Positions 713 to 17,009 of a stretch of 64,000 nt of DNA are shown here, one piece after another (position 1 is the stretch's first letter; each line of letters begins with the position of its first letter). Below the pieces are notes generated by a model, which saw nothing but the letters and a program-made list of their open reading frames with translations, did no database searches and was not told the origin of the DNA. A program made the position numbers and the translations under genes. This stretch comes from Sphingomicrobium lutaoense (GTDB lineage Bacteria > Pseudomonadota > Alphaproteobacteria > Sphingomonadales > Sphingomonadaceae): the NCBI RefSeq assembly GCF_014195685.1, contig NZ_JACICF010000001.1, positions 567,317-631,316 of the forward strand. Reading direction: 5' to 3'.

Positions 713-1899
713 ATATCCTTCTACTCACCTATTACTTTCCTCCCGATCTTAGCGCGGGCTCCTTTCGCAGTGGCGCACTCGTCGATGCATTGCTCGGACA
801 GATGGATTCGCACGATCAATTGCGGGTTGTCACAACCCACCCCAATCGCTATGCGGAAATGCGAACTGCTGGCGGTTCGCAATTTCATGACGATGAGCGG
901 TTCTCGGTGGTGCGCGCAAGCATCCCGGCGCATCGCAGCGGCTTTGTCGACCAAGCTCTTGGGTTTCGGCATTTTGCTCGTGCCGCATGGGAGGCCGCGC
1001 TTGCGTTCAAGCCAGACCTTGTGGTTGCAACTTCATCTCGGCTCGCAACTGCGGCGCTCGGCGCGGCCGTTGCACGTCGAAATGGCGCCAAGCTCTATCT
1101 CGATTTGCGCGATATTTTCACCGAAACACTGGCTGACGTCGTTTCCACCGGGCCGATGCGCACGTTAATTCCGCTATTTTCTCGCGTAGAACACTGGGCG
1201 CTACGCCGCGCTGATAGAATCAACATAGTGTCGCCTGCTTTTGCAGACTATTTTGGTCCGATAGTGGGGCATCGGGAGTTCTCAACTTTCACCAACGGCG
1301 TAGACAGCCTTTTCCTGGAGGCGATACCTCCCGGGCTAAACCGAGATTCGGCTCAACGAATTGTAATGGTGGCGGGCAATATGGGCGATGGGCAGGGGCT
1401 CCACCGTATTATCCCGCAAGTAGCGGAGCGGCTTGAAGGAACAGGGCTAACCTTCCGTCTAATTGGCGGTGGGGGTAGGCGCCCGGAGCTCGAAAATGCG
1501 CTAGAACAGAGTGACGCTGGGAGGTTTGCCGAAATCCGGGACCCCATCCCCCGCGAAGAGTTGATTGAGCAATATCATGAAGCGTCGGTTCTCTTCCTCC
1601 ACCTCAATGACTTGAGAGCTTTTGACCGTGTGCTCCCGTCGAAAATATTCGAGTACGCCGCGACGGGCCTTCCTATTGTGGCAGGCGTAAAAGGCTATGC
1701 TCGCCGATTTCTCGATGAAAACGTAGTGGGGGCATTTACCTTCGATCCGTGTGATGTGGATGGGTGTCTCGCCGCGCTAAAGGCAAGCGCAGCTGGCCCC
1801 CCTCGTTACGATCGCACGAAATTCGTCGAGCGATATGCCCGGTGCAATATCATGAAGCAGATGGCCCGCGAAATCTTATTGCATGGACAGATTAGTTAG
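709..1899 (+). CDS. Glycosyltransferase family 4 (GT-B fold)
   Basis: A 396-residue protein that probably adds a sugar to the lipid-linked repeat unit at the cytoplasmic face of the inner membrane. The N-terminus (MNILLLTYYFPPD) is the usual start of WbuB-like GT4 enzymes. The middle holds the VMVAGNMG strand that opens the second Rossmann domain. The C-terminal part has a PSKIFEYAATGLPIVAG motif (about residues 310-326), the E-x7-E-like nucleotide-sugar binding signature of GT4 enzymes. The GTG start overlaps the upstream lyase stop (GTGA). Its 3' end overlaps the end of the convergent gene by 8 bp. The donor and acceptor sugars cannot be deduced. Confidence 0.85.
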   Translation: MNILLLTYYFPPDLSAGSFRSGALVDALLGQMDSHDQLRVVTTHPNRYAEMRTAGGSQFHDDERFSVVRASIPAHRSGFVDQALGFRHFARAAWEAALAFKPDLVVATSSRLATAALGAAVARRNGAKLYLDLRDIFTETLADVVSTGPMRTLIPLFSRVEHWALRRADRINIVSPAFADYFGPIVGHREFSTFTNGVDSLFLEAIPPGLNRDSAQRIVMVAGNMGDGQGLHRIIPQVAERLEGTGLTFRLIGGGGRRPELENALEQSDAGRFAEIRDPIPREELIEQYHEASVLFLHLNDLRAFDRVLPSKIFEYAATGLPIVAGVKGYARRFLDENVVGAFTFDPCDVDGCLAALKASAAGPPRYDRTKFVERYARCNIMKQMAREILLHGQIS

Positions 1900-3091
1900 C
1901 GGTGCGGTCCCCGCCGCCCCTACCCAAAAAAGTCTGGACTAGAATTCGCAGGTCAAGCGCAAGGCAGCGAAGCTGGAGGTAACGCTCGTCCCATTGTGCG
2001 AGACGCACAGGGTTGCTCATGTCAACACCGTTGATCTGCGCTAAGCCGGTTAGTCCTGGACGGATCTGGTAAATGCCACGATTCCGCCTCTCCGTTATCA
2101 GTTTTTGTTGAACGGGCAGGCAGGGGCGGGGACCCACGACGCTCAATTCACGCCGCGCGATGTTAAAAATTTGCGGAAGTTCGTCAATTTTGAGCCGGCG
2201 AAGCCATTTACCTACTCTAGTGACTTCCGCGGCTGAGACTTCGTGAGTGCCAGCTTGCCTGGTACCCACACGCATAGTCCTGAACTTGTACAGGATGAAA
2301 ACCCGCTCGTCCTTCCCTACTCGAGGCTGAGCAAAAATTGCCGGTCCCCTGCTCTCCAAACGGATCAGGATCGTTACGAGCAGCATTAGCCACCCAATCA
2401 GCAGTATGACAAAAGCGACGAATGCCATGTCGATAAGAAAGCTTGCAATGCGGTACAAAGTGTTTTGTCCGTTATCGGGTACAAGGCGCCGGACGGGCGA
2501 CGAGTTTGAATTGTCCAAACACTCGTGGACGGCTTTGAGCGCGTCGTTTGCAGGAATTGTCGGCTTAATAGCCGCCGCCCAGCGCCAGAGGGTATGAGAC
2601 AAGCTGCCTTCGGGTGCTGTAATCAATTTTGGAAGCACCAGCCAGCAGATGTCTTTTCCGCCATCGAGACGTGCCCATTCCTGCGCCTCGGCTTTACTGA
2701 TCGCATACGGGCTGCAATTTCCGGGATCGAGAGCGTGGGTCGAGGAAAACGCAAGAATTCGCCTGATTCCGATAGATCGTGCAGTTCCCACTAGGGCGGT
2801 AAATCGGTCTACATTGACCGCGCGAAACGCTTTCAGGTCGCCTTTCGCGTCATTGTTCAGAACGGCAAGGTCGACCAGTGCGTCGCAACCCCGAGCAGCG
2901 ACACCGAAGTCGGCGCAGTGATGGCAATCATGTTGTGGAAATATACGGGCCAATGCTGCGGCATCGCGTCCAAACAATCGCAATTGGGCACCGTGCTTGG
3001 CGAGGTAAGGGACGAGCAGCCGTCCGAGCTTTCCACTCGCTCCGGTCAGCGCGATGGTTTTTCCGTCTAGACTCCTCTCCGTGTTCGTCAT
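1892..3091 (-). CDS. Fusion: NAD-dependent sugar reductase/epimerase + bacterial sugar transferase (phosphoglycosyltransferase)
   Basis: A 399-residue two-domain protein. Residues ~10-200 are an extended-SDR Rossmann domain with the LTGASGKLG nucleotide loop and an SS...YAISK (Ser, YxxxK) catalytic set. A hydrophobic re-entrant helix follows at ~215-245. Residues ~245-399 are a monotopic phosphoglycosyltransferase domain with KFRTMR, KIDELPQ (catalytic Asp-Glu pair), VVGPRP and RPGLTGLAQINGV motifs. This domain family moves a phospho-sugar from a UDP-sugar to undecaprenyl phosphate, starting the repeat unit. The start codon overlaps the stop of the WbpM-type dehydratase upstream (ATGA). I infer that the SDR domain reduces the dehydratase's 4-keto product, giving a QuiNAc- or FucNAc-type sugar for the transferase domain. 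The SDR half is short compared with stand-alone 4-reductases. Confidence 0.85.
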   Translation of the reverse strand: MTNTERSLDGKTIALTGASGKLGRLLVPYLAKHGAQLRLFGRDAAALARIFPQHDCHHCADFGVAARGCDALVDLAVLNNDAKGDLKAFRAVNVDRFTALVGTARSIGIRRILAFSSTHALDPGNCSPYAISKAEAQEWARLDGGKDICWLVLPKLITAPEGSLSHTLWRWAAAIKPTIPANDALKAVHECLDNSNSSPVRRLVPDNGQNTLYRIASFLIDMAFVAFVILLIGWLMLLVTILIRLESRGPAIFAQPRVGKDERVFILYKFRTMRVGTRQAGTHEVSAAEVTRVGKWLRRLKIDELPQIFNIARRELSVVGPRPCLPVQQKLITERRNRGIYQIRPGLTGLAQINGVDMSNPVRLAQWDERYLQLRCLALDLRILVQTFLGRGGGDRTAN

Positions 3092-5398: not shown

Positions 5399-6397
5399 AT
5401 GTTTGAAGGCAAAACCATTCTTGTAACGGGCGGCACAGGATCGTTTGGCCATGCCTTCGTGCCAATGACGCTCAAACGTTTTAACCCTAAAAAAATCATT
5501 ATCTTTTCGCGCGACGAGATGAAGCAATGGGAGATGGCCAAGAAGTTTGACGGCGATGAACGCGTGCGGTTCTTCATTGGCGACGTGCGCGATCGGGAGA
5601 GGCTATACCGCGCTCTCGACGGAGTGGATTTCGTCGTGCATGCCGCAGCGACAAAAATTGTGCCGACTGCCGAGTACAATCCCTTCGAGTGTGTCAAAAC
5701 CAACATTAATGGCGCAATGAACCTGATTGATGCTTGTATTGATAAAGGTGTCGAACGGGTAGTCGCGCTTTCAACCGACAAGGCGTCGAGTCCGATCAAC
5801 CTATACGGTGCGACAAAACTGGCTTCCGACAAACTGTTTGTCGCCGGTAACAGTTATTCCGGGTCGGGAAAGACGCGATTTTCTGTGGTGCGCTACGGTA
5901 ATGTCATGGGATCGCGCGGCTCGGTTATACCCTTTTTCCAGTCAATTCGCGGAAAGGGCAAGGTGCCGATCACCGATGTTCGGATGACCCGATTTATGAT
6001 CAGCCTGGAACAGGGTGTTGAATTGGTATGGCATGCTTTCGAGGACATGGTCGGAGGCGAGATCTATGTTAAGAAAATCCCGTCGATGAGGGTAACCGAC
6101 CTTGCACGGGTTGTGGCCCCCGATGCAGAACAGGAGGTGGTCGGCATCCGCCCCGGAGAAAAGCTTCACGAGCAGATGATCGGATTTGAAGATGCACCCT
6201 ACACATATGAATATGACGAGCATTACAAAATCCTTCCCGCTATTCACGGCTGGGATCAAACCTCAGACCGGATCAAGGATGGCAAGCGGGTCGAGGCCGG
6301 CTTCACATATTCCAGCGACAACAATGAAAGCTGGATGAGCGAAAGCGAATTGGCGCAGTGGATCGAGGACAATCGTGGGAAAATCGGGGCGATCTGA
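5399..6397 (+). CDS. pseB: UDP-GlcNAc 4,6-dehydratase (inverting), first step of pseudaminic acid synthesis
   Basis: A 332-residue soluble SDR enzyme. It converts UDP-GlcNAc to UDP-2-acetamido-2,6-dideoxy-beta-L-arabino-hex-4-ulose, the first Pse step. The N-terminus MFEGKTILVTGGTGSFG carries the nucleotide loop. The active-site stretch STDKASSPINLYGATK has the Asp-Lys and Tyr-xxx-Lys residues of PseB. VGIRPGEKLHEQM near the C-terminus is also typical. I chose the ATG at 5399 because the protein then begins exactly where PseB proteins do; in-frame codons further upstream add unrelated residues. The stop shares bases with the pseC start (TGATG), so both are cotranslated. Confidence 0.95.
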   Translation: MFEGKTILVTGGTGSFGHAFVPMTLKRFNPKKIIIFSRDEMKQWEMAKKFDGDERVRFFIGDVRDRERLYRALDGVDFVVHAAATKIVPTAEYNPFECVKTNINGAMNLIDACIDKGVERVVALSTDKASSPINLYGATKLASDKLFVAGNSYSGSGKTRFSVVRYGNVMGSRGSVIPFFQSIRGKGKVPITDVRMTRFMISLEQGVELVWHAFEDMVGGEIYVKKIPSMRVTDLARVVAPDAEQEVVGIRPGEKLHEQMIGFEDAPYTYEYDEHYKILPAIHGWDQTSDRIKDGKRVEAGFTYSSDNNESWMSESELAQWIEDNRGKIGAI

Positions 6398-7560
6398 TGG
6401 CTTTCATCCCTTACGGTCGCCAATCGATTAGCGACGAGGACATCGCTGCGGTCATTAGGGTGCTGAAGTCAGATTTCCTTACCCAAGGACCCGCGGTTCC
6501 AAATTTTGAGGAGAAAATTTCTACTGCGACGTGCGCTCGCCACGCGGTAGCAGTCAATAGTGCGACTTCGGCACTACATATTGCATGTCTGGCCCTGGGG
6601 CTTGGGCCGGGCGACTGGCTTTGGACCAGCCCTGTCACTTTCGTCGCGTCTGCTAATTGCGGGCTCTATTGTGGGGCGCGGGTCGATTTCGTCGACATCG
6701 ACCCGCGAAGTTACAATCTCGACCCCGACCGCCTTGAGGAAAAGCTGCTGGTCGCCGAACGTGAAGGGCGATTGCCCAAGGTGGTCGTTCCTGTGCATCT
6801 AACTGGGCAAAGCTGCGACATGGAGCGAATCTACAGGCTTTCGCAAAAGTATGGGTTTCGTGTCATAGAAGATGCCTCGCACGCCATCGGCGCTAGCTAC
6901 AAGGGTCGACCGGTCGGTGATTGCCGATACTCGGATATCTGTGTCTTCAGCTTCCACCCAGTGAAAATCGTGACTTCAGCCGAGGGCGGGGTCGCTACAA
7001 CTCAGGATGAAGTACTTGCCGAGCGGATGCGACTTTTGCGCAGCCATGGCATAACTCGTGATGATCAGCGGTTGCGAGAGCCCAGCCATGGCGGATGGTA
7101 TTACGAGCAGCAGTTGCTCGGCTTCAACTATCGCATGACCGATATGCAGGCAGCGCTCGGGGCAAGCCAGATGGATCGGCTCGCCGAGTTCATCGATATG
7201 CGCCACCTGCTGGCAGACCGTTACGATCGGCTTCTCGACCTAGACGCATTGCAGCTGCCAGTCCGTCTGCCCGACCGTCGTTCGTCTCTGCATCTATACG
7301 TCATTCGGCTCGCGAAGGGAGGGGGAGGCATTGCGCAACGCGCGCTGTTCGATCATCTGCGCGAGGCGGAAATTGGCGCAAACCTCCATTATATCCCCGT
7401 CTATCGTCAGCCCTATTATCGCGAAATGGGTTTCGATCCGTCGGACTTTCCGCAGGCCGAAGCCTATTACCGCGAAGCGATTACGATACCGCTTTTTCCT
7501 GCCATGAACGAAGAGCAGCAAGACTATGTGATCGCAGCAATCCGGAAAGCGATATGTTAA
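6397..7560 (+). CDS. pseC: UDP-4-amino-4,6-dideoxy-N-acetyl-beta-L-altrosamine transaminase
   Basis: A 387-residue PLP-dependent DegT/DnrJ/EryC1-type aminotransferase, the second Pse step, adding the C4 amino group to the PseB product. The N-terminal FIPYGRQSISDEDIAAV and FLTQGP motifs match PseC. The PLP-binding lysine lies in FSFHPVKIVTSAEGG (about residues 186-200). The ATG at 6397 overlaps the pseB stop and gives the family-standard N-terminus. It sits in a run of genes on one strand from pseB to the flippase, reading as one long operon. Confidence 0.95.
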   Translation: MAFIPYGRQSISDEDIAAVIRVLKSDFLTQGPAVPNFEEKISTATCARHAVAVNSATSALHIACLALGLGPGDWLWTSPVTFVASANCGLYCGARVDFVDIDPRSYNLDPDRLEEKLLVAEREGRLPKVVVPVHLTGQSCDMERIYRLSQKYGFRVIEDASHAIGASYKGRPVGDCRYSDICVFSFHPVKIVTSAEGGVATTQDEVLAERMRLLRSHGITRDDQRLREPSHGGWYYEQQLLGFNYRMTDMQAALGASQMDRLAEFIDMRHLLADRYDRLLDLDALQLPVRLPDRRSSLHLYVIRLAKGGGGIAQRALFDHLREAEIGANLHYIPVYRQPYYREMGFDPSDFPQAEAYYREAITIPLFPAMNEEQQDYVIAAIRKAIC

Positions 7561-7600: not shown

Positions 7601-9379
7601 ATGAACGACACTATGCCGGTGTTGATGATCGAATTGGCTAATGCTCATGGTGGCGTTGAGCAAGTTATCGATGCCATGATCGAGGCGGCGATCGCAGTTG
7701 AGTACCCTGACAAGGTAATCAAATTTCAGCCCTTCAAATTCGATCTGATCGCAATTCCGGACTTCGAATACTACTCAGTGTATCGGGATTTGTATTTTTC
7801 TCCTAGTGAATGGGGGCGAATGATCCTAAAAACGGCAAGTAACTGTAAAGTTTGCTTGGACATTTTGGATCTCTATAGTTGTGAAATTTTGCGATCGAAT
7901 TGTGAGCAAATCTCATTTATCAAATTCCAATCGTCCATATTAGAGAATTACGAGGTCCTAACCGCGCTTCGATCGATCGATCTCAGCGACAAAAAAATCT
8001 TGGTCAATGTCTCAGGCCTTTCGCTCGATAGAATTGATGCGACGCTTGAGGAGTTGGGAAGTTTTGGCGCGCAAATCATTCTGCAGGTCGGATTTCAATC
8101 CTACCCGACACACCCTGAGGATCTTGGTTTGCAGAAAATAGAGCGTCTTGCGGCCCGGTTTCCTGAGTATGAACTGGGTATCGCGGACCATAGCGATGCG
8201 AACAGTGCTTTTGCGCAAATAGCTCCCCTTCTCGCAGTGGCGAAAGGAGCAAAATATGTTGAGAAACACATCTGCATTTCGCGCACATCTGCTAAATTCG
8301 ACGGTTCCGCCGCTTTGGAGCCTCAGGAGATGCAGAATCTCGCAGAGCATCTTAAGTTAGTTCATGCGTCGAGCCAGGCGCAATTTGTCCCTCGGAGCGA
8401 ACGGACTTATCTGGATTCTACGATCCAAGTGCCGGTTGCCGCTCGGATGGTTTCGGCCGGTTCTCTTCTTTCGGACGTCGACCTCTTATATCGCCGGACG
8501 GCGCAGTCTGGCCTTAAAAGGCACGAGCTTTTTGAACTGCAAAGGAGGCGCTACATTCTCGCCGAGCCTGTCGATACTTTTAATGTAGTCGCTGCCGAAA
8601 ACTTTCGATCTGCGAAGGTTGCAGCGATCATCGCTGCTCGCATGAAATCGACACGTCTGAAGCGAAAAGCACTATTGGAAATCGGCGGAACCGCATCATC
8701 TGTGCGCTGCTTGCGTCAGTGCGCAGCCGCTCGAGGCGTCCAACAAACTATTCTCGCTACGTCTGACATTGAAGAAGATGGAGTACTAGAGAATGTAGCA
8801 CGAGAGGCGGGCGTAGATTTTTGGAAAGGCGACAAGGACGACGTAATTGATCGTTACCTCGGGGCGTGCAAACATTACGATATAGACGTGGTGGTTCGGA
8901 TGACAGCGGATAATGTTTTTGCATCTCCAGAAATAATCGATTTCCTTCTTGATAGCCATTTTGCAACCGGGGCTGATTATACGGCGGCTGCAGATTTTGT
9001 TGTTGGTACGGCTTCTGAAATAATTAATCGTGAGGCACTACAGAGAGTTGCCGATCATTTTGGTAGGGCCGAGCATTCCGAATATATGACTTGGTATTTC
9101 CAGAACAATAAAGACAGGTTTAAGGTGAATATTGTCGACCTGCCTAAAGATTGGGTCGGCGATTTTCGTCTCACCCTCGATTATGAAGAGGATCGTGAGA
9201 TGATGGATGAACTCGCTCACCGGCTCGGGAAAAAGGAACGAGTTTACGCGCTCGACGATGTTCTTTCGGTTCTTCGATCGGACCCGGCGCTTGCTGGAAA
9301 AAACGCGCATATCGGGCTGCGCTATAAGGAGGATAAGAACCTCATCGATATGCTCGATCACCAAACCCGTATGAAATAG
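7601..9379 (+). CDS. Fusion: NeuB-like nonulosonate synthase domain + SpsF-type cytidylyltransferase domain (candidate PseF role)
   Basis: A 592-residue protein with two recognisable parts. Residues ~1-335 are NeuB-like: IELANAHGG, VIKFQ, GIADHS (~195), VEKH (~220) and KFDGSAALEP (~233) preserve the Glu, Lys, both metal-binding His and the Asp of the NeuB/PseI fold. An SAF-like tail follows at ~270-335, without the usual Arg-Arg-Ser-Leu entry. Residues ~340-575 are SpsF/CMP-sugar-synthetase-like: IIAARMKSTRLKRKALLEIGG, ILATSD and VVVRMTADN. No separate PseF gene is visible, so this domain is the best candidate to activate the sugar with CMP. ATG 7601 follows GGAG at 8-base spacing. Base composition is clearly more AT-rich than the neighbours, suggesting a separate origin. 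The product's stereochemistry is unknown. Confidence 0.8.
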   Translation: MNDTMPVLMIELANAHGGVEQVIDAMIEAAIAVEYPDKVIKFQPFKFDLIAIPDFEYYSVYRDLYFSPSEWGRMILKTASNCKVCLDILDLYSCEILRSNCEQISFIKFQSSILENYEVLTALRSIDLSDKKILVNVSGLSLDRIDATLEELGSFGAQIILQVGFQSYPTHPEDLGLQKIERLAARFPEYELGIADHSDANSAFAQIAPLLAVAKGAKYVEKHICISRTSAKFDGSAALEPQEMQNLAEHLKLVHASSQAQFVPRSERTYLDSTIQVPVAARMVSAGSLLSDVDLLYRRTAQSGLKRHELFELQRRRYILAEPVDTFNVVAAENFRSAKVAAIIAARMKSTRLKRKALLEIGGTASSVRCLRQCAAARGVQQTILATSDIEEDGVLENVAREAGVDFWKGDKDDVIDRYLGACKHYDIDVVVRMTADNVFASPEIIDFLLDSHFATGADYTAAADFVVGTASEIINREALQRVADHFGRAEHSEYMTWYFQNNKDRFKVNIVDLPKDWVGDFRLTLDYEEDREMMDELAHRLGKKERVYALDDVLSVLRSDPALAGKNAHIGLRYKEDKNLIDMLDHQTRMK

Positions 9380-9478: not shown

Positions 9479-10396
9479 ATGCCATCGTCGGATGCAGCCC
9501 GTCATGCACGAAGGGGTTTCCACTTTGCTGAACGAATTGTCGGCACCGCTCAGTGGGGACTTGATTATGGCATCGCCAATCGCACAGGCCTGCCCTGCGA
9601 AAATGAGGTTCATGAAATGATGCGACTTGCATATCAGGGTGGAGTTCGAACGCTGGATACGGCAAGAGCATACGGAGATAGTGAAGAGCGTATTGGGCGC
9701 AGCGCGCTTAGTTCTCGATTTACAATTCTAACGAAAACGCCTCCGAATATGGGTCCTCGTTCCGAGGATGTCCGCTCAGCAATCGAGGAATCTCTTTCTG
9801 CGCTGCGTCGTGACAGGCTTGACGGCTTGCTACTCCATCGCATCGCCCAACTAGCCCATGAGCAAACTATGCAAGCGCTAATGGACGCACAGGCTAATGG
9901 TCTCATCGAACGAATAGGGGTTTCTGTTCAGGGGCCGGAGGAAATGGAGAAGGCGCTTGGAGACGAGCGCATTTCGATAATCCAATTTGCGTACAATCTG
10001 CTTGATAACCGTTGGGAGAGCTTTTTGGCGCGTTTTGAAAAGGTCCGGAAAGAGCGCGATCTTAAACTCCACGCCCGCTCTGCGTTGCTCCAGGGGTTGC
10101 TTCTTTCTCGCGATCCCCATCATTGGCGCATGGCCCACGTTGAAGACCCTCATCCTATTTGGCGATGGCTTGATAATCTAGTTTTGGCCAATGAGAACCG
10201 TTCGCTGGCCGAGTTATTGATTGAGGGTGTACGGCGTCTGGAATGGATCGACGCGGTCATCATCGGTGTCGAGACTCCCGCTCAGCTTCGCGCTCTGCTC
10301 GGTAATCGGGACTCATCCGATTTGATCATTCCCGCTGATCGCCCGAGCATTCAACCTGAAACCCTAAATCCAGCGTTGTGGACCCAAGCGGCATGA
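9479..10396 (+). CDS. Aldo/keto reductase family oxidoreductase
   Basis: A 305-residue TIM-barrel NAD(P)H-dependent reductase. The GTAQWGLDYGIAN start and the LDTARAYGDSEERIG motif (Asp and Tyr of the catalytic tetrad) define the family, and the segment TILTKTP carries the catalytic Lys. Near the C-terminus VIIGVETPAQL marks the cofactor site. The start at 9479 is supported by AAGGAG eight bases upstream. It lies inside the pse operon and overlaps the following SDR gene (ATGA), so it probably modifies a sugar or nonulosonate intermediate. It is not one of the canonical six Pse enzymes, and its substrate cannot be read from sequence. Confidence 0.85.
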   Translation: MPSSDAARHARRGFHFAERIVGTAQWGLDYGIANRTGLPCENEVHEMMRLAYQGGVRTLDTARAYGDSEERIGRSALSSRFTILTKTPPNMGPRSEDVRSAIEESLSALRRDRLDGLLLHRIAQLAHEQTMQALMDAQANGLIERIGVSVQGPEEMEKALGDERISIIQFAYNLLDNRWESFLARFEKVRKERDLKLHARSALLQGLLLSRDPHHWRMAHVEDPHPIWRWLDNLVLANENRSLAELLIEGVRRLEWIDAVIIGVETPAQLRALLGNRDSSDLIIPADRPSIQPETLNPALWTQAA

Positions 10397-11175
10397 TCAC
10401 TTCCGATGCTCCATTGGTGGGGCGAAATGTAATGATTACTGGCGCCATGGGTTATCTGGGACGGGCGATGGTCGCGCGATTTCTTGAGGCAGGCGCATTT
10501 GTGGTGGCGCAAGGCCGCACCCCCAAAAAACTTGACCTACTCGATGGTGGGGCTAGCGAGAATCTCAAGTACGCATGTTTCGATATCACTGATGCGGCGG
10601 CTTGCGAGACCTTTTTCGAGCGCTTTGGCCAACCGCTGCATGCATTAGTGCATAATGCCTATGCTGGGCGGGGTGGAACGCTCGCAACGGCTAGTGACGA
10701 GGATTTCCGACAAAGCTACGAGGTTGCGATGGTTGCGGCGCAGCGCTTAACTCGGCTTGCACTTCCGGCACTACGGAGGGGAAGTGCTGAGTATGGTGAT
10801 GCCGCAATTCTCGCAATCGCCTCGATGTATGGCAAAGTGAGTCCAGATCCTTCGTTATACTTGGAACCGGAGGCAACCAACCCACCATTTTACGGGGCCG
10901 CCAAGGCAGCGCTGATCCAATGGGCCCGCTATGCGTCTGTCGAACTCGCTCGCGAAGGAATCCGCGTAAACAGCCTGTCCCCGGGTCCGATACCTAATAA
11001 AAAAGTGCGCGAAGAAGCGCCGGATTTCGTCCAGAAGCTCGCGAGCAAAGTGCCGCTTGGTCGGACGGGGCGTCCAGACGAGGTAGCGCAAGCCGCCGTG
11101 TTCCTTTGTTCGCCTGCAGCATCTTTCGTTACCGGGGCCGATCTGCCAGTCGATGGCGGTTGGACCGCTCTGTAG
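10393..11175 (+). CDS. Short-chain dehydrogenase/reductase in the nonulosonate operon
   Basis: A 260-residue classical SDR. It shows ITGAMGYLGRA (nucleotide loop), a catalytic Ser in AIASMYGK, YGAAK (YxxxK), and the typical C-terminus FVTGADLPVDGGW. ATG 10393 overlaps the aldo/keto reductase stop; a GTG five codons earlier is possible but less likely. SDRs of this type, such as PtmA of Campylobacter flagellar glycan loci, occur next to nonulosonate genes. Here it presumably acts with the preceding reductase to oxidise or epimerise a sugar intermediate. This role is inferred from context only. Confidence 0.85.
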   Translation: MITSDAPLVGRNVMITGAMGYLGRAMVARFLEAGAFVVAQGRTPKKLDLLDGGASENLKYACFDITDAAACETFFERFGQPLHALVHNAYAGRGGTLATASDEDFRQSYEVAMVAAQRLTRLALPALRRGSAEYGDAAILAIASMYGKVSPDPSLYLEPEATNPPFYGAAKAALIQWARYASVELAREGIRVNSLSPGPIPNKKVREEAPDFVQKLASKVPLGRTGRPDEVAQAAVFLCSPAASFVTGADLPVDGGWTAL

Positions 11176-11179
11176 AGAG

Positions 11180-12772
11180 ATGACCGTCTTTCGATCAATC
11201 CTTTTTCGCTGTGATGCATCCCGACTATCGGGAATCGGTCATATGGAGCGATGCCTGACGCTTGCTAATGCCCTTTTAGGACATTCGACGCGCACAACCT
11301 TTGCAGTTCGCCATTGTCCAGACGCGCTTGAAGAGAAAATCCGCGCACAGGGGCATAGTGTGGAGCGCCTTCGAAAAGGGAGTAATGATCAATCACTCAC
11401 TGGCTATCTGCGCTGGCTGGGTGTTTCCTCTTCGCGCGACGCAGCGGAAACGCTTGAGGTCGCTCGATCGGTCGAGGCCGACTTAGTCGTGGTGGACCAT
11501 TATGCGCTTGGCCTAGAATGGGAAGCCTCTTTGGCTACCGTGGGCGCGGCGATCATGGCGATCGACGATCTCGCCGACCGTGTGCATCATGCTGATTTGC
11601 TTCTCGATCAAAATCTGGGCAGGTGCGCCGAACATTACTCGAAGCTTGTACCATCCGACTGCGAAGTGCTTACTGGCCCCGAATTCGGATTGCTCCGCCC
11701 CGAATTCGCAGCGGAACGATCGGCCGCGCTAGCACGGCGCAAGGACCCCGGGCGCCATCTGCTTATCAGTCTTGGCGGGGTGGACAAGGACGATTTTTCG
11801 GGAAGGGTGCTGCGTGAGTTAGCAGAGTTGGGGTGGCATTCGCTCGAACAACTTACAGTAGTGATGGGGAGTTCGGCGCCTCATCGCGACGCGGTTTGTA
11901 GGCTTCTGGAGGACTGTCCGATCCCCCACCGTGTCGAGGTCGACAGTGATCAGATGGCCGCACTTTTCCGTGACGCTGATCTTGCCGTGGGCGGGGCGGG
12001 GTCAACATCTTGGGAGCGTTGTGCGCTAGGTTTGCCATCTCTGCTCGTTGTCCAATCGGAAAATCAAACTGTGATCGCAGATTCACTTGAAAAAGCGGGA
12101 GCCGCGATCTCGAGCGGGACGAACCCAAAAGCAGAAGACTTAGCAAGACTATTGGCGCTGCTTGATCGCCCAAGTGATTATCGCAGGCTAAGTAACAACG
12201 CCTCGGTACTTTGCGATGGTCGCGGGACGGGCCGCGTAGCTGCGGCTGTGAACCGGATGAAACACGCTGTGGATCTCTTGAAACCGCTAACCGAAACAGA
12301 TTTGCAGATTTTGCTCGAATGGCGCAATCACGATGATGTTAGGAGGCACATGTATTCCAGTCGACCTATTGCGTTTGCTGATCATTGTCGTTGGTTTGAG
12401 AACTTAAAGCGAGACCCCTTGCGACAGGCCTTTATTTACGAGTGCGAAGGCAAGCCGAGCGGCTTCGTTCAATTCGAGAGAGATGACGCGGGCACTGTGG
12501 CTGAATGGGGCTTCCATGCAGCGCCTGGCAGCCCTAAGGGAACGGGTCGGCGTCTAGGCACGCTGGCGCTCGATTATCTTTTTGGTGTGATAGGGTGTGA
12601 TGCAGTCCGAGGGGCAGTCATACTGTCAAATTACGCCTCGCTGTCATTTCATCGAGTGTTCGGCTTCGAGCCAGACGGCCAGCCAGTCGAAATTCGAAAA
12701 GGCGATTATTCGGGTGATGTGCAGTATTTGCGACTGACGCGAGATCGATGGTTTGAATGCAGAAAGGTATGA
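11180..12772 (+). CDS. Fusion: UDP-sugar hydrolase (PseG) + GNAT N-acetyltransferase (PseH)
   Basis: A 530-residue bifunctional enzyme covering two Pse steps. Residues ~1-355 are PseG, which removes UDP from the diacetamido-trideoxy-altrose: it has RCDASRLSGIGHMERC at the N-terminus, an LSLGGVD-like region (LISLGGVDKDD), and GGAGSTSWERCALGLPSL. Residues ~370-530 are a GNAT acetyltransferase like PseH, which acetylates the C4 amine: LLEWRNHDDVRRHM, then GFVQFE, and KGTGRRLGTLALDYLF for acetyl-CoA binding. ATG 11180 gives a start matching PseG; the upstream in-frame codon overlaps the SDR gene. The fusion couples reactions normally done by two proteins, with PseH acting before PseG. Confidence 0.9.
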   Translation: MTVFRSILFRCDASRLSGIGHMERCLTLANALLGHSTRTTFAVRHCPDALEEKIRAQGHSVERLRKGSNDQSLTGYLRWLGVSSSRDAAETLEVARSVEADLVVVDHYALGLEWEASLATVGAAIMAIDDLADRVHHADLLLDQNLGRCAEHYSKLVPSDCEVLTGPEFGLLRPEFAAERSAALARRKDPGRHLLISLGGVDKDDFSGRVLRELAELGWHSLEQLTVVMGSSAPHRDAVCRLLEDCPIPHRVEVDSDQMAALFRDADLAVGGAGSTSWERCALGLPSLLVVQSENQTVIADSLEKAGAAISSGTNPKAEDLARLLALLDRPSDYRRLSNNASVLCDGRGTGRVAAAVNRMKHAVDLLKPLTETDLQILLEWRNHDDVRRHMYSSRPIAFADHCRWFENLKRDPLRQAFIYECEGKPSGFVQFERDDAGTVAEWGFHAAPGSPKGTGRRLGTLALDYLFGVIGCDAVRGAVILSNYASLSFHRVFGFEPDGQPVEIRKGDYSGDVQYLRLTRDRWFECRKV

Positions 12773-12917: not shown

Positions 12918-13994
12918 ATGGATTCTCATACAATTGAAATCGATGGTCGCAAGATCGGCGGGGGCTTTCCCCCCTACGTTATCGCAGAGGTTTCGGCCAA
13001 TCATAATGGTTCGCTTGATCGTGCATTCGGGATCATCGACGAAGCCGCTCGAGCCGGGGCCGACTGCATCAAGCTGCAAACCTATACTGCTGATACGATG
13101 ACGCTGAAGTCAACGAGGCCGGACTTCAAGATTGAAGGCGGGCTGTGGGATGGAGAGTATCTCCATGACCTATATGAGCGGGCTTACACGCCTTGGGATT
13201 GGTTTCCTCGGATTTTCGATCGGTGCCGCAAGCTCGGCATTACTGCCTTTTCCTCACCTTTTGACAAAAGCGCGGTCGACTTTCTCGAAGATTTAGGCGC
13301 TCCAGCTTACAAGATCGCCTCGTTTGAAGCGATCGACCTGCCGTTGATCCGATATGTTGCCTTGACGGGTAAGCCGTTGATCATTTCGACGGGCATGGCT
13401 GATGCTGAGGAAATCGAGGAAGCAATCTCCGCGGCGCGCGAAGCGGGGTGCCGCCAGCTCGCCATTTTGCATTGCGTAAGTGGCTACCCGGCCCCAGCGG
13501 CCGATTACAACTTGCGTACGATCCCTGACATGCGGGAGAAGTTCGGGGTGGTCGTGGGGCTCTCCGACCATACGTTGTCGAATTATACCGCGATTGCCTC
13601 AGTCGCGCTTGGTGCGTCAATTATTGAGAAACATTTCACCCTCGATCGCAAAGCTGGGGGGCCTGATGACAGTTTCTCGCTCGAACCTGCCGAATTGAGA
13701 AATCTAGTGGAAGGCGCGCGTACAACCTTCGAGGCGTTGGGTGCGGTCGACTATGGTCGTAAGTCGAGTGAAATCGGCAATGTGCAATTCCGGCGATCAC
13801 TGTATTTCGTGACCGATCTCGAAGCGGGCGCCACCATCGGACCCAACGATATTCGCTCGGTGCGGCCCGGATTCGGCTTACCTCCCAAATATTTTGATCA
13901 GATCGTCGGCTGTACCCTGCGAGAGCCGGTGAGCTACGGTACGCCAGTAACTAGCAGGCATTTGGCGTCGGAAGGCCTGGAGGCCGATGGCTGA
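12918..13994 (+). CDS. pseI: Pseudaminic acid synthase
   Basis: A 358-residue NeuB-family enzyme condensing 2,4-diacetamido-2,4,6-trideoxy-L-altrose with phosphoenolpyruvate to give pseudaminic acid. Motifs in order are YVIAEVSANHNGSLDRA, CIKLQTYTADTMTL, FSSPFD, YKIASFEA, IISTGMA, GLSDHTLSN and IIEKHFTLDRKAGGPDDSFSLEP. The SAF domain has RRSLYFV and a RPGFGLPPKY segment, as expected of an active enzyme. ATG 12918 gives the usual N-terminus; a GTG at 12897 is in frame. A 145-base gap separates it from pseG-pseH. Its 3' end overlaps the next membrane gene by 8 bp. This is the canonical synthase of the operon, in contrast to the divergent NeuB-like half upstream. Confidence 0.95.
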   Translation: MDSHTIEIDGRKIGGGFPPYVIAEVSANHNGSLDRAFGIIDEAARAGADCIKLQTYTADTMTLKSTRPDFKIEGGLWDGEYLHDLYERAYTPWDWFPRIFDRCRKLGITAFSSPFDKSAVDFLEDLGAPAYKIASFEAIDLPLIRYVALTGKPLIISTGMADAEEIEEAISAAREAGCRQLAILHCVSGYPAPAADYNLRTIPDMREKFGVVVGLSDHTLSNYTAIASVALGASIIEKHFTLDRKAGGPDDSFSLEPAELRNLVEGARTTFEALGAVDYGRKSSEIGNVQFRRSLYFVTDLEAGATIGPNDIRSVRPGFGLPPKYFDQIVGCTLREPVSYGTPVTSRHLASEGLEADG

Positions 13995-15294
13995 GCTTCC
14001 TTTACCTGATCGACCCCGTCCACATCTCCAGCCTGCGTTCGTAGAAAGCAGTAGAGTGGCTTTAGCGGATTTAAGGAAGTCTTGGCACCCGATCGTTTGG
14101 GGGCTGATCGTATATGTTGCTGTCGCTAACCTTTTGATTTCGGCCTTAACTCCGTTGCGAATTGCCGGCATTCTGGATCCGGTGGAGCTGCGCAACCCCT
14201 TACTGATCGCATCGCTTGGCCTTTGGGTAGTCCTTGGAAACCCCTTTCGAATACTTAAGCCGCGTTTCTTGGTACAATATGTGTTAATTCTTATGATCGT
14301 CGTATCAGCTTGGCGCGGGATCGAAAATTTTTATAACCCGTTTTACCAGCGCAACTATCTCTCGCACCTTTTCCAACTTGGCAGTGCCTATTGCCTTCTA
14401 GGGGTGGGTTATCATGCGTCGAACCAGATTCCAAAAAAGGTTTGGATGATATTAGGTTGGGCGACAGTTGGCGCTGTACTCTTGTCAACGCAGACGATTA
14501 TCTCTTCGCTTGAGAGAGGTGAGGTAGAGCGCTTCTATACTGCCGCTTACTCACTATTGTTGCCTATGGCCTTCGGACTGCTGTATTCGCGGCGCATGGC
14601 GATTGCTTCTTTTTTATTATTAATCATCTCGAATAAACGAGCTGTAATGCTAGCAATTGCCCCGATGTTCGCGGTTTTCATGAAAATCGGCCCTTCTTCG
14701 CATGCCCGAAGGAGAAAAGTGACCGAAAAATTGCTCATGCTATTGGTCGGCGTTAGCGTGATGGCATCAGCGGCGGCTTTGTTGGGATTTATCGCTGGAA
14801 GTGCGGGGAGCGACCAGTCTGGCGTGACTCGAGCGGCGCAAATTACTTACGAGCGTATGGCCTCCAGCATTGAGGTGGGGACGGGCGAGCGATCCCTGGA
14901 GGAGATTGATGCTGGGCGTACCTTTGAGGTGCAAACTGCGCTCGATACCCTTGACTCGTTTGAACTGGCGTTTGGCTCGGGAGCGGGCTGGACGATTTAT
15001 CTAAGGGACCATTTTGCGCAGAACGTACATTTCACGCCCATCTCTTTGACCGTAGTGTTCGGGGTTTTTTTTGCGGTATATATTTATGCTTTCCTGATCA
15101 GGACAGTGTGGCGAGGAATGCGCCGAACTAGTGCGCCGACGGTGGCTGAAAGCATCGCGCCAATTTACTTGAGCGGTGCGATCGTCCACACCCTTTTCGC
15201 ATATAGCATATTTATCGACTTTTTTATCTTCTTCTTCGCGGGTGCCGTGCTTGCGGGCGTTGAAAGAGATAAGGCAGCCCGATCTGCAGCTTGA
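13987..15294 (+). CDS. Wzy-like polysaccharide polymerase / O-antigen ligase-type membrane protein
   Basis: A 435-residue integral membrane protein with about ten hydrophobic segments. A large extracytoplasmic loop lies at ~265-345 and contains GTGERSLEEIDAGR and FGSGAGW, followed by NVHFTPISL. Such a loop with a GSG motif before a His-rich strand is typical of Wzy and O-antigen ligase proteins, which join lipid-linked repeat units in the periplasm. It starts 8 bp inside pseI and ends overlapping the next gene's start (TGATG), then a flippase follows. Sequence identity in this family is low, so the call rests on topology and position between a synthase and Wzx. Confidence 0.65.
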   Translation: MAELPLPDRPRPHLQPAFVESSRVALADLRKSWHPIVWGLIVYVAVANLLISALTPLRIAGILDPVELRNPLLIASLGLWVVLGNPFRILKPRFLVQYVLILMIVVSAWRGIENFYNPFYQRNYLSHLFQLGSAYCLLGVGYHASNQIPKKVWMILGWATVGAVLLSTQTIISSLERGEVERFYTAAYSLLLPMAFGLLYSRRMAIASFLLLIISNKRAVMLAIAPMFAVFMKIGPSSHARRRKVTEKLLMLLVGVSVMASAAALLGFIAGSAGSDQSGVTRAAQITYERMASSIEVGTGERSLEEIDAGRTFEVQTALDTLDSFELAFGSGAGWTIYLRDHFAQNVHFTPISLTVVFGVFFAVYIYAFLIRTVWRGMRRTSAPTVAESIAPIYLSGAIVHTLFAYSIFIDFFIFFFAGAVLAGVERDKAARSAA

Positions 15295-17009
15295 TGCCCC
15301 GTCTCTTGGTGAATCTGAGGAGCGATTGGGATGACCCGATCTGGAGGGGCGCTTCGAAGGAGCTGGTCCTATATGTTGGCCCTCCTCCGCCAATTGAGCT
15401 GGGTCTCGACGCGCGACCCGTCGGACCGCTCGATCGTGAGGCGCGCGCGTCATTAGCTGCTCGAACCGGGGAACAGTGGTCGTCGATGTCTCCGGGTCTT
15501 GTAAAAGATTTGTGTGGCGCGCATCTCAACGATTACCTTAATTATGCTCTAGTAGTCAGAGAAGCTGCATTGAACGCAGTGCTCAAATGGCGACACGCTG
15601 CCAAGGAAATCGTCATTTTAGCCTACGCCACCGGTTGCGAAAGCATGCCACTATTCGGTGTTCACAACAGCGAACGTAGCATCGGGTCGCCTTCGTTATT
15701 GAATTCGCGTTATGCGCAATGGCTCGCTACTAAATGCAATGCCCGTCTGGAGCTGACCTCGGCCCCCATTCGTGACCTCTGGCATCGCAGGCATTTCCGA
15801 TCAGTCCTGTTATTGCTGGCATCCGCATGGCTACTGTTACGGTATGCCGTACGGTTGTTAAATGCAGCGCCGGCAGCACGGGGAGCCGAGAGCCATACAC
15901 CGTTACTCATAGTTAGAGCCCTACACCAGTTTCGTTTTGCGCGCGGCTTGCTGCGAGAAAGCGGCCATTTGTCGCTCTGCCTGGTGCCTCAATATAGCCA
16001 GGGCAATGTCAAAACTTTGGTCGATCGCGCTCGCACGCTCCCGCGGAAGGGATTCATCATGGTCCCGGGACTGTCCGATTGGTTCGGAGCGTTGTTCGCG
16101 GCAATCGCGATGCGATGGCGGTTGGGGCGCGAATTGTCTCGGACCCGCACGCCCCCCGATTTGGTCGGTTTAGCCATCGAAATGCGACATGCTCATATCG
16201 GTTTGTTTCATGTGGCATTAATTGACCGCGTTGCTAAAAGAGGAGGCAGAGATCTGGTCAATTTCGAGATGATCGGGGCAATGGCGGGTCTCGAAGCGTT
16301 GGCTGCGCGACGAGCCGGACTGCGTCTATCGAGCGTCCAAACCGCTCTGATTTCCGATGCCCCGCTCGCAATTTTTCCGTTCAGCGATGAATTTTACTCG
16401 GATAGTCCTGAGATGGCTTGCTTGTGCGAGCGGCTTGGCCATGTGCGGATGGGCGAGGTGAAATTTGTAGGATCACCCTATCCCGTGCAGCCAATCCGCC
16501 CGCTGCCCCCTGATTGCGATCTACTTTTCTGCACCCAGCCCGATGATCGCTCTGCCAACCTGCGCATTCTTAAGGCACTGATCCCGCTGGCTAAAAACGG
16601 GGGGAGGCGACTCGCCGTCCGGCCACATCCGCGCGACGATATGACCTTTTACCGAGCAGCACTCGAGGCGGCAGGAATCACAGTAATTGTCGATCGGGAC
16701 GAGCTTTCGAATTCGCTCGAAAAATACCCGCTAATTGTTCTTAAAACATCAAGTCTAGCAAAGGACGCGCTCGGTGCGGGGGCGCATATCGTTTTTTGCC
16801 ATTTTACCGATCGTGACAGGTCACTTAGTGCCGATTATCTCGATTCCGCTCGGGCGACTGGGCTTGTGGCCAATGATGAAGCTCAGTTGGCCGAACTGAT
16901 TGCCAATCCGAATAGCCTTTCATCCAGGACCGGGGTGCTTCGTTCGTCCGTCCTGCCCGAGCTATCGATCAGGGATTTGGCCGATGTGCTTGGCAAGGAT
17001 GGCCGATGA
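15294..17009 (+). CDS. Unrecognised cytoplasmic protein, probable glycosyltransferase
   Basis: I do not recognise this 571-residue protein with certainty. It has no signal peptide; a hydrophobic stretch at ~165-180 (VLLLLASAWLLLRYAV) could be a membrane anchor. The C-terminal half resembles a GT-B donor domain: a CTQPDD strand-loop, then LAVRPHPRDDMTFYRAAL, a later LIVLKTSSLAKDALGAGA segment and a terminal helix. HP-R/D motifs of this sort occur in polysialyltransferase-like and CDP-glycerol-transferase-like enzymes. It lies between the polymerase and the flippase, overlapping both, in the operon that makes the nonulosonate. It is therefore a plausible transferase for that sugar, which is an inference. 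Confidence 0.5.
   Translation: MPRLLVNLRSDWDDPIWRGASKELVLYVGPPPPIELGLDARPVGPLDREARASLAARTGEQWSSMSPGLVKDLCGAHLNDYLNYALVVREAALNAVLKWRHAAKEIVILAYATGCESMPLFGVHNSERSIGSPSLLNSRYAQWLATKCNARLELTSAPIRDLWHRRHFRSVLLLLASAWLLLRYAVRLLNAAPAARGAESHTPLLIVRALHQFRFARGLLRESGHLSLCLVPQYSQGNVKTLVDRARTLPRKGFIMVPGLSDWFGALFAAIAMRWRLGRELSRTRTPPDLVGLAIEMRHAHIGLFHVALIDRVAKRGGRDLVNFEMIGAMAGLEALAARRAGLRLSSVQTALISDAPLAIFPFSDEFYSDSPEMACLCERLGHVRMGEVKFVGSPYPVQPIRPLPPDCDLLFCTQPDDRSANLRILKALIPLAKNGGRRLAVRPHPRDDMTFYRAALEAAGITVIVDRDELSNSLEKYPLIVLKTSSLAKDALGAGAHIVFCHFTDRDRSLSADYLDSARATGLVANDEAQLAELIANPNSLSSRTGVLRSSVLPELSIRDLADVLGKDGR

Follow-up and report, generated by a model that had tools for sequence, protein, structure and literature searches.

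Why does an operon for pseudaminic acid (Pse) that has its own synthase encode a second synthase-like domain, and why is that domain joined to the operon's cytidylyltransferase? The gene that raises this question lies at 7601..9379 of a 64,000-nucleotide stretch of the Sphingomicrobium lutaoense genome (the window; all genes described in it are on the + strand), in the order pseB-pseC-fusion-AKR-SDR-pseGH-pseI. Upstream lie pseB (5402..6397; TIGR03589, 536 bits, cut-off 408) and pseC (6358..7560; TIGR03588, 549.5 bits, cut-off 423.5). Downstream follow an aldo/keto reductase (AKR) gene of uncertain start (9479..10396; PF00248, 99.9 bits; ATG at 9479 after GAAGGAG), a short-chain dehydrogenase/reductase (SDR) gene (10378..11175; PF13561, 141.5 bits), a pseG-pseH fusion (11153..12772; TIGR03590, 255.8 bits, and TIGR03585, 99.4 bits, both above cut-off) and a canonical pseudaminic acid synthase gene, pseI (12918..13994; TIGR03586, 482 bits, cut-off 340), whose product falls in the PseI clade of our tree. 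We classed the locus as a Pse operon on the basis of pseB, pseC, pseG, pseH and pseI, all of which score above the NCBIfam cut-offs.

The fusion is a single open reading frame, stop codon included, with a product of 592 residues, and its two-part architecture is well established. The NeuB-fold half, a TIM barrel with a SAF-like tail, spans residues 1-335 (7601..8605), and the SpsF-type cytidylyltransferase half spans residues 338-592 (8612..9376). Pfam places NeuB (PF03102) at residues 88-257 (69.5 bits, above cut-off) and CTP_transf_3 (PF02348) at residues 341-505 (80.3 bits, cut-off 22.6). An AlphaFold2 model computed from 25 natural sequences has a mean pLDDT of 92.4 and a pTM of 0.69. Its residues 1-336 match NeuB (1xuu) over both barrel and tail (Z 29.9, 322 residues, 3.5 Å) and also PseI (8h2c, Z 27.1); for residues 337-578 the match is a Leptospira cytidylyltransferase (6oew; Z 29.2, 234 residues, 2.2 Å). 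The first-pass annotation of this DNA had described such a fusion, with the NeuB Glu, Lys, both His and Asp in place (E11, K41, H197, H223 and D234) and a separate pseI downstream in the same operon, and all of this is borne out. It had also called the gene AT-rich; at 48.3% GC the gene is indeed the operon's minimum (the remaining operon genes have 52.0-57.6%), but the entire first 25 kb of the window is low (55.7%, and 63.9% past position 25,000).

To what does the cytidylyltransferase half join CTP? In the source genome (2.08 Mb, two contigs, completeness rating 100%), PF03102 finds the fusion, pseI and nothing else. With PF02348 the fusion scores 77 bits, and three other proteins match, all weakly (25.3, 20.7 and 20.7 bits, two of them above the Pfam cut-off). 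These three are GlmU (659 bits), a protein resembling MurU (245 bits, cut-off 370) and one of 255 residues with weak MobA/CofC-like similarity; by model, none of them is a CMP-sugar synthetase. The count given in the first-pass annotation, two synthase domains and one cytidylyltransferase, is correct. A PseF elsewhere in the genome, which that annotation had said would refute its reading, was searched for and none was found: the PseF model TIGR03584 (cut-off 205.7 bits) has no match at E 0.001 to the fusion or anywhere in the source genome. Across 28 fusion-bearing genomes (the source genome and those of 27 of the 32 fusion loci described below) this model exceeds its cut-off in 0/28, as it also does in none of the control genomes, so that the count comes with no positive control. 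Nothing above 47 bits to the PseF model appears in 22/28, and the other 6/28 have a NeuA/PseF-like protein that stays below cut-off, at 100-157 bits.

A role for the cytidylyltransferase half as a stand-in for KdsB is unlikely, because KdsA (TIGR01362) is absent from the source genome; the same model is positive in 9/14 control genomes. KdsB models match this half weakly (best 53.3 bits, cut-off 193), and its profile is nearest to 6oew (112.6 bits) and distant from KdsB (37.9 bits). Six of its residues are invariant in an alignment of 25 rows: R347, S350, R352 and K356, which we take to be the CTP-binding Arg/Ser/Arg/Lys set, and two Asp, D437 and D527, which we presume to belong with them. 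Since the source genome shows no other PseF-, NeuA- or KdsB-like enzyme, the cytidylyltransferase half is, by elimination, very probably the operon's CMP-pseudaminate synthetase, in place of PseF.

The neighborhoods of unfused relatives of this half are consistent with such a role. Lone SpsF-type cytidylyltransferases, with no NeuB half, adjoin pse genes in the same order at five loci: beside pseC (L041), beside AKR and pseC genes (L042), beside pseI (L043, L047) and, within the same genus, beside pseB and pseC (L045, where the cytidylyltransferase match crosses a TAG). The Pse cluster of Vibrio B9-25K2 carries an SpsF-AKR fusion followed by a dehydrogenase gene, a counterpart of the cytidylyltransferase-AKR-SDR section of the present operon, and the accessible part of that report suggests the fusion as a probable NeuA replacement (PMC7371886). 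Caulobacter FlmC, as described in the available text, has no homology to PseF and is part of a six-enzyme Pse pathway rebuilt in E. coli, in which its individual contribution was not isolated (PMC7591256). A B. subtilis spsF mutant, in the portion of that study at hand, has legionaminic acid in the mother cell and none on the spore, and complementation failed (PMC7439481).

Because relatives of the fusion are encoded at 32 loci in GTDB genomes (from a scan for close relatives only), it is not a product of chance or misassembly. By their titles, with phyla assigned from the genus names, these comprise 23 Bacteroidota, four Bacillota, three Pseudomonadota, one Brocadia and one Leptolyngbya. The relatives are full-length, apart from those at contig ends and L037, where the halves are two adjacent open reading frames; at L030 the fusion carries an AKR as a third domain. 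Both pseB and a PseI-like gene are present at 25/32 loci each, and at the seven loci lacking the latter the sequence stops ∼2.6 kb or less past the fusion. The fusion loci examined have no second hexose pathway that recurs consistently.

Closer to home the fusion is rare. Among 100 related genomes (the source genome, 60 of the same genus and 39 of the same order), the source genome is the only one with a full-span match to both halves, and horizontal arrival in this lineage is therefore likely. We considered and rejected a phage or plasmid origin. Phage sequences gave one match, to the cytidylyltransferase half alone, and a PHROG search with the fusion gave zero. All 43 matching plasmid records are below 60% identity, 29/43 of them from Azospirillum, Sinorhizobium, Rhizobium or Neorhizobium. 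The Azospirillum plasmid locus with the best coverage (L196) carries a canonical pseI and, after it, an SpsF-type cytidylyltransferase as a gene of its own, and a Rhizobium locus (L197) has a canonical-type NeuB gene followed by a separate cytidylyltransferase gene; these two are thus unfused neighbors, not fusions.

What, then, is the NeuB half? It reaches 53.5 bits against the PseI model TIGR03586 (cut-off 340) and 69.9 bits against TIGR03569 (cut-off 400). Many canonical residues are kept in 27/27 fusions: E11, H16, K41, Q43, D90, K108, Y168, D196, H197, E221, K222, H223, D234, G287 and R299. The NeuB-family catalytic set (E11, K41, K108, H197, H223, D234) is thus present throughout, whereas the Ser-Thr-Gly motif, the second Ser and the Cys are gone. 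In PseI numbering, S157-T158-G159 is replaced by N, I/V and A/S, Cys186 by Gly164 and Ser/Thr188 by Gln166, each in 27/27 fusions; Ser216 corresponds to residue 195 (26 Ala, one Thr), and the Glu137 position is Val/Ile113 in 26/26. The window's fusion has N136, G164, Q166 and A195 for the canonical Ser, Cys, Ser/Thr and Ser. By comparison, S157, T158, G159, C186 and S216 are kept in 60-62/62 rows of canonical synthases, a set of PseI and NeuB/LegI-like sequences that leaves out the NeuB open reading frames of L075, L076, L082 and L089. Also set apart are two synthases, one next to the fused pair of L126 and one next to that of L128, which keep the Ser, Thr, Gly, Cys and Ser but have no equivalents of Gln54 and Arg316, and are canonical in a loose sense.

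These replacements fall in what we take to be the donor pocket: Ser132, Ser154 and Ser213 of Neisseria NeuB are presumably the PEP phosphate binders. The numbering and catalytic roles used here for the equivalents of its E25, K53, K129 and D247, and the roles of the residues replaced in the fusions, are likewise partly assumed. The one paper found on the roles of single donor-pocket residues lists, in its available text, an active site lined by Glu25, Gln55, Asn74, Thr110, Phe112, Lys129, Asn184, Tyr186, Ser213, His215, Glu234, Phe288 and Arg314 (PMC6795526). The NeuB active-site geometry, whose loss the first-pass annotation had said would count against its reading, is therefore retained in predicted fold and metal-ligand residues and altered in donor-pocket residues. 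PEP use by the NeuB half of the fused clade is doubtful, although K41, Q43, K108 and R299, expected of a working synthase, are all kept.

A quick tree with 87 rows unites 26/26 NeuB halves in one clade (SH-aLRT 100), whose stem measures 2.84 changes per column. This clade sits outside PseI, NeuB/LegI, SpsE and 3g8r, its exact place being unsure because of long branches; for the unfused relatives described below, the tree flags long-branch joins. As far as sequence can assign it, the NeuB half is neither PseI nor NeuB nor LegI. Both halves are under purifying selection: in five close pairs (a sixth is saturated at synonymous sites) the NeuB half has a dN/dS of 0.054-0.100, the cytidylyltransferase half one of 0.058-0.122 and PseI one of 0.048-0.104. 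Tree distances of the NeuB half and PseI are correlated (r 0.62, 25 loci), which indicates that the operon travels together and no more, since PseB and PseC correlate likewise (r 0.68, 17 loci).

A profile built from the NeuB halves of the fusions alone (A2) also retrieved unfused and differently fused relatives, so that the fusion belongs to a wider class in which a NeuB-like protein is paired with a cytidylyltransferase. In one Leg-type cluster (L061), LegC, NeuC, NeuB and NeuD, all above cut-off, are followed by PtmE-like, NeuB-like and cytidylyltransferase genes. Two others (L123, L125) have LegC, NeuD, LegI, NeuC and PtmE followed by the pair, as judged by BLAST to L061, and L124 and L121 are also Leg-type clusters with the pair; LegB and PtmE labels rest on gene order and BLAST to L061, with no NCBIfam model above cut-off. 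A Pse cluster (L122) has pseB, pseC, AKR, NeuB-like, cytidylyltransferase and pseG genes, with pseI ∼8 kb away. Two Bacillota genomes (L193, L194) have a PtmE-like, NeuB-like and cytidylyltransferase triad with the synthase on another contig, and further fusions occur at L060 and at L126 and L128, the last two adjoining a HAD phosphatase gene and a further gene of the NeuB family. L052/L059 belongs less securely because, at 209 bits to TIGR03569, it is nearer to canonical NeuB. L053 keeps the first canonical Ser, and L053 and L122 keep the second.

We sorted 88 NeuB-family open reading frames into class and canonical by residues alone, and a clear difference in their neighbors emerged: an SpsF-type cytidylyltransferase is fused or adjacent in 14/14 class members (93-323 bits) versus 1/74 canonical synthases, where a single partial match has 77 bits and nine further ones lie at 27-42 bits (Fisher p 2e-15, which ignores kinship). 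The sample comes from 89 loci, comprising all 29 matches of the A2 search and the best 30 from each of two longer lists; one locus (L168) had no classified open reading frame and was dropped. The 14 members are three fusions that seeded the profile (L092, L132, L162), eight found via A2 and three via a further profile (A4), these last eleven found before their neighboring genes were seen. The A2 genome tallies (8/398 and 26/296) include canonical synthases too, and those of A4, which also finds canonical synthases, are not class counts. An SpsF-type cytidylyltransferase does not in itself imply the class, since canonical synthases adjoin one at L043, L047, L196 and L197, all four reached via matches to the fusion. 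All of 14 further genomes that carry the pair (14/14) also encode a separate NeuB-family protein scoring above 200 bits, in 12 of them within 8 kb. At E 1e-5 the class profile matches eight PDB sequences, all NeuB, PseI or SpsE entries; none of the eight is a solved structure of the class, and in those aligned over the region both the Cys and the second Ser are present.

The reading that we prefer, at a probability of roughly one half, is that the fusion is a two-domain CMP-Pse synthetase whose N-terminal half is a former synthase that no longer builds sugar and serves activation; we infer CMP-Pse as the product, the loss of synthase activity and a hand-over role. PseB, PseC, PseH, PseG and PseI would make Pse, and the cytidylyltransferase half would join CTP to it, replacing PseF. 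The NeuB half, of synthase descent, would have lost its synthase role, leaving PseI to supply Pse; its metal site and some of its sugar-side pocket would persist, beside a remodeled donor pocket. Most likely it would hold or prepare the new nonulosonate, or dock onto PseI, and thereby deliver the sugar to the cytidylyltransferase domain. Because SpsF-type cytidylyltransferases also occur alone, the N-terminal half would be an aid or an added step, and the core reaction would not depend on it. The class is, in this sense, optional, an observation that runs against the preferred reading.

The NeuB half may instead be a true enzyme that uses a metal for new chemistry, needed before CMP activation, with the nonulosonate or a precursor of it as substrate, a possibility that we hold tentatively. 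Such chemistry could be ring opening and closing to an anomer that the cytidylyltransferase can use, epimerization, or a reversible aldol reaction with pyruvate. Eight residues (E11, G164, D196, H197, E221, K222, H223, D234) are universal in the class (37/37, 27 fusions and 10 others), and all of them except G164 argue for this reading, being kept while the donor pocket changes. Outside the fused clade, K108 is lost in 5/10 members and K41 in 2/10, so both synthase lysines are dispensable there and the metal site is the common feature; in the fused clade both are retained, so that a simple loss of synthase chemistry is harder to argue there. The class is also common to Leg-type and Pse clusters, and in L121 and L123 genes of the YhcH family (PF04074) adjoin the pair. 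The E. coli YhcH is a Neu5Ac anomerase according to a report whose available text is silent on biosynthesis, CMP and NeuB (PMC8141875). Its presence next to the pair suggests that such clusters handle the anomer problem, but another protein may do so there, and wherever YhcH adjoins the NeuB-like protein, the latter would not be needed as an anomerase; moreover, SpsF-type cytidylyltransferases work in other clusters with no NeuB-like protein. If such chemistry did take place, the class, found in at least Pseudomonadota, Bacteroidota and Bacillota, might mark a metal-dependent step between synthesis and CMP activation that is absent from textbooks, a speculative proposal to which we give limited credence.

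It is unlikely that the NeuB half works as a PEP-dependent synthase of a second ulosonate, with the cytidylyltransferase half activating both that product and Pse, a variant of the second nonulosonate considered in the first-pass annotation. The retention of K41, Q43, K108, both His and R299 in 27/27 fusions and the separate PseI at 25/32 loci favor it. The gene content of the fusion loci, with no consistent second hexose pathway, speaks against it, as do the replaced Ser/Thr/Gly/Cys set, the unfused relatives that have lost K108 or K41, the occurrence of the class in both Pse- and Leg-type clusters, and the need for the source genome's only cytidylyltransferase to serve Pse too. We regard as very improbable an active Pse synthase that duplicates PseI and is fused to channel its own product. 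Its domain order would follow the pathway order, and L196 and L197, with a canonical synthase directly upstream of a cytidylyltransferase, show how a fusion might have started; but such channeling presupposes a working synthase, redundant with the PseI present at 25/32 loci, itself under purifying selection beside the fusion in five pairs, and the clade lies apart from PseI with an altered donor pocket. Of the channeling once proposed for this locus, a modified form, in which PseI's product is handed over, fits better. A decaying relic, which the first-pass annotation had coupled to the better-founded proposal, backed by genome elimination and synteny, that the cytidylyltransferase half serves as PseF, can be dismissed almost entirely: the NeuB half is less identical to the window protein (30-43%) than the cytidylyltransferase half (43-57%), has a larger mean tree distance (1.79 versus 1.34, 21 loci) and matches Pfam NeuB partially, but it is under purifying selection, conserved across phyla with 41 positions invariant in 26 sequences, confidently predicted to have the full fold, and encoded as its own open reading frame in L037 and at the unfused loci.

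The biosynthetic routes to Pse and Leg are generally regarded as fully described. If a conserved paralog of the synthase is tied to CMP activation in both, then one of their components would so far have been missed; the results point to an unrecognized component among folds and a pathway that are already known. Automated annotation is likely to name members of the class sialic acid synthases, and a simple rule would sort them: Gly for the Cys, loss of the Ser of the Ser-Thr-Gly motif, and a fused or adjacent SpsF-type cytidylyltransferase mark the class and not a true synthase. The class would explain Pse operons that have no pseF and may help enzymatic synthesis of CMP-Pse. We found no description of the fusion or the unfused pair in searches of open-licence PubMed Central papers, and the accessible parts of three related reports have no mention of the fusion (PMC7371886, PMC13317340, PMC3438082).

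It is instructive to compare the fusion with known systems. Its NeuB half shares with the PseI, NeuB and LegI synthases the fold, the metal histidines, E11, K41, K108, D234 and R299; it differs from them in falling below their cut-offs, in forming its own clade, in the replaced Ser-Thr-Gly, second Ser and Cys, and in that the class pair coexists with a separate synthase in all 14 further genomes. The C-terminal half resembles the SpsF-type cytidylyltransferases (B. subtilis SpsF, Leptospira 6oew and that of Vibrio B9-25K2), to which the fusion adds a NeuB half, and belongs to the same superfamily (PF02348) as PseF, NeuA and KdsB, but has no match to the PseF model and is far from KdsB. The nonulosonate cluster of Leptospira, in the part of the report available, has two NeuB genes, the second being sas/neuB2, and neuA2 (PMC4758666). 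The vertebrate CMP-sialic acid synthetase is also fused to a domain like that of a neighboring pathway enzyme, a HAD sugar phosphatase; in the accessible text this C-terminal domain is phosphatase-like, has no shown phosphatase activity and is linked to oligomerization (PMC8636478). That accessory domain has an unrelated fold and is C-terminal, whereas the NeuB half is N-terminal, so the likeness is one of analogy, that of a pathway enzyme recruited as an accessory domain.

In L007, one of the loci recovered by searches with the fusion or its halves, an N-acetyl sugar amidotransferase gene, WbuX (11437-12636, 323 bits), and two more shared genes lie downstream of the fusion; L033 and L031 belong to the same cluster family, and our guess is that the sugar made by these WbuX-bearing clusters is acetamidino-Pse. 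In the legionaminate-type clusters L121 and L123, a YhcH/YjgK family gene (PF04074; 6434-6871 and 6340-6777, respectively) directly adjoins the unfused pair of cytidylyltransferase and NeuB-like protein, and possibly encodes a nonulosonate anomerase acting in biosynthesis.

A canonical-type synthase is followed directly by a separate SpsF-type cytidylyltransferase on an Azospirillum plasmid (L196, 3950-5758) and a Rhizobium plasmid (L197, 3614-5304), an arrangement that is a likely starting state for a NeuB-cytidylyltransferase fusion. A further fusion of the cytidylyltransferase domain within the host's order is the 579-aa protein of L049 (505-2244, minus strand), in which an N-terminal CTP_transf_3 domain precedes >300 aa without a Pfam match. 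Canonical-type NeuB was also observed within ORFs of 748-761 aa (L170-L174, L176-L178, L181, L183, L185), from the same phylum as the Leptolyngbya genome; these keep the synthase residues, with Ser at the Arg299 (Arg314) position.

Around the Pse operon, the window encodes a protein that joins an NAD-binding epimerase-like domain, at the N-terminus, to a bacterial sugar transferase (1892-3091, minus strand) and, downstream of pseI, a 572-aa protein without a Pfam match (15291-17009), whose position alone makes it a candidate Pse transferase. Profile searches of the host genome gave no KdsA match and, with PF02348, no KdsB-level CTP_transf_3 match, so Kdo may be absent from the host.

Aldo/keto reductase (AKR) and short-chain dehydrogenase/reductase (SDR) genes lie close to the SpsF-type cytidylyltransferase in the window (9479-11175) and again in L028 and L030, the AKR being a fused domain in L030; in L122 and L042 the AKR occurs there without the SDR. 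The combination is also present in a published Vibrio cluster, where the AKR is fused to the cytidylyltransferase and a dehydrogenase follows (PMC7371886). Cytidylyltransferase, AKR and SDR could form a tailoring module.
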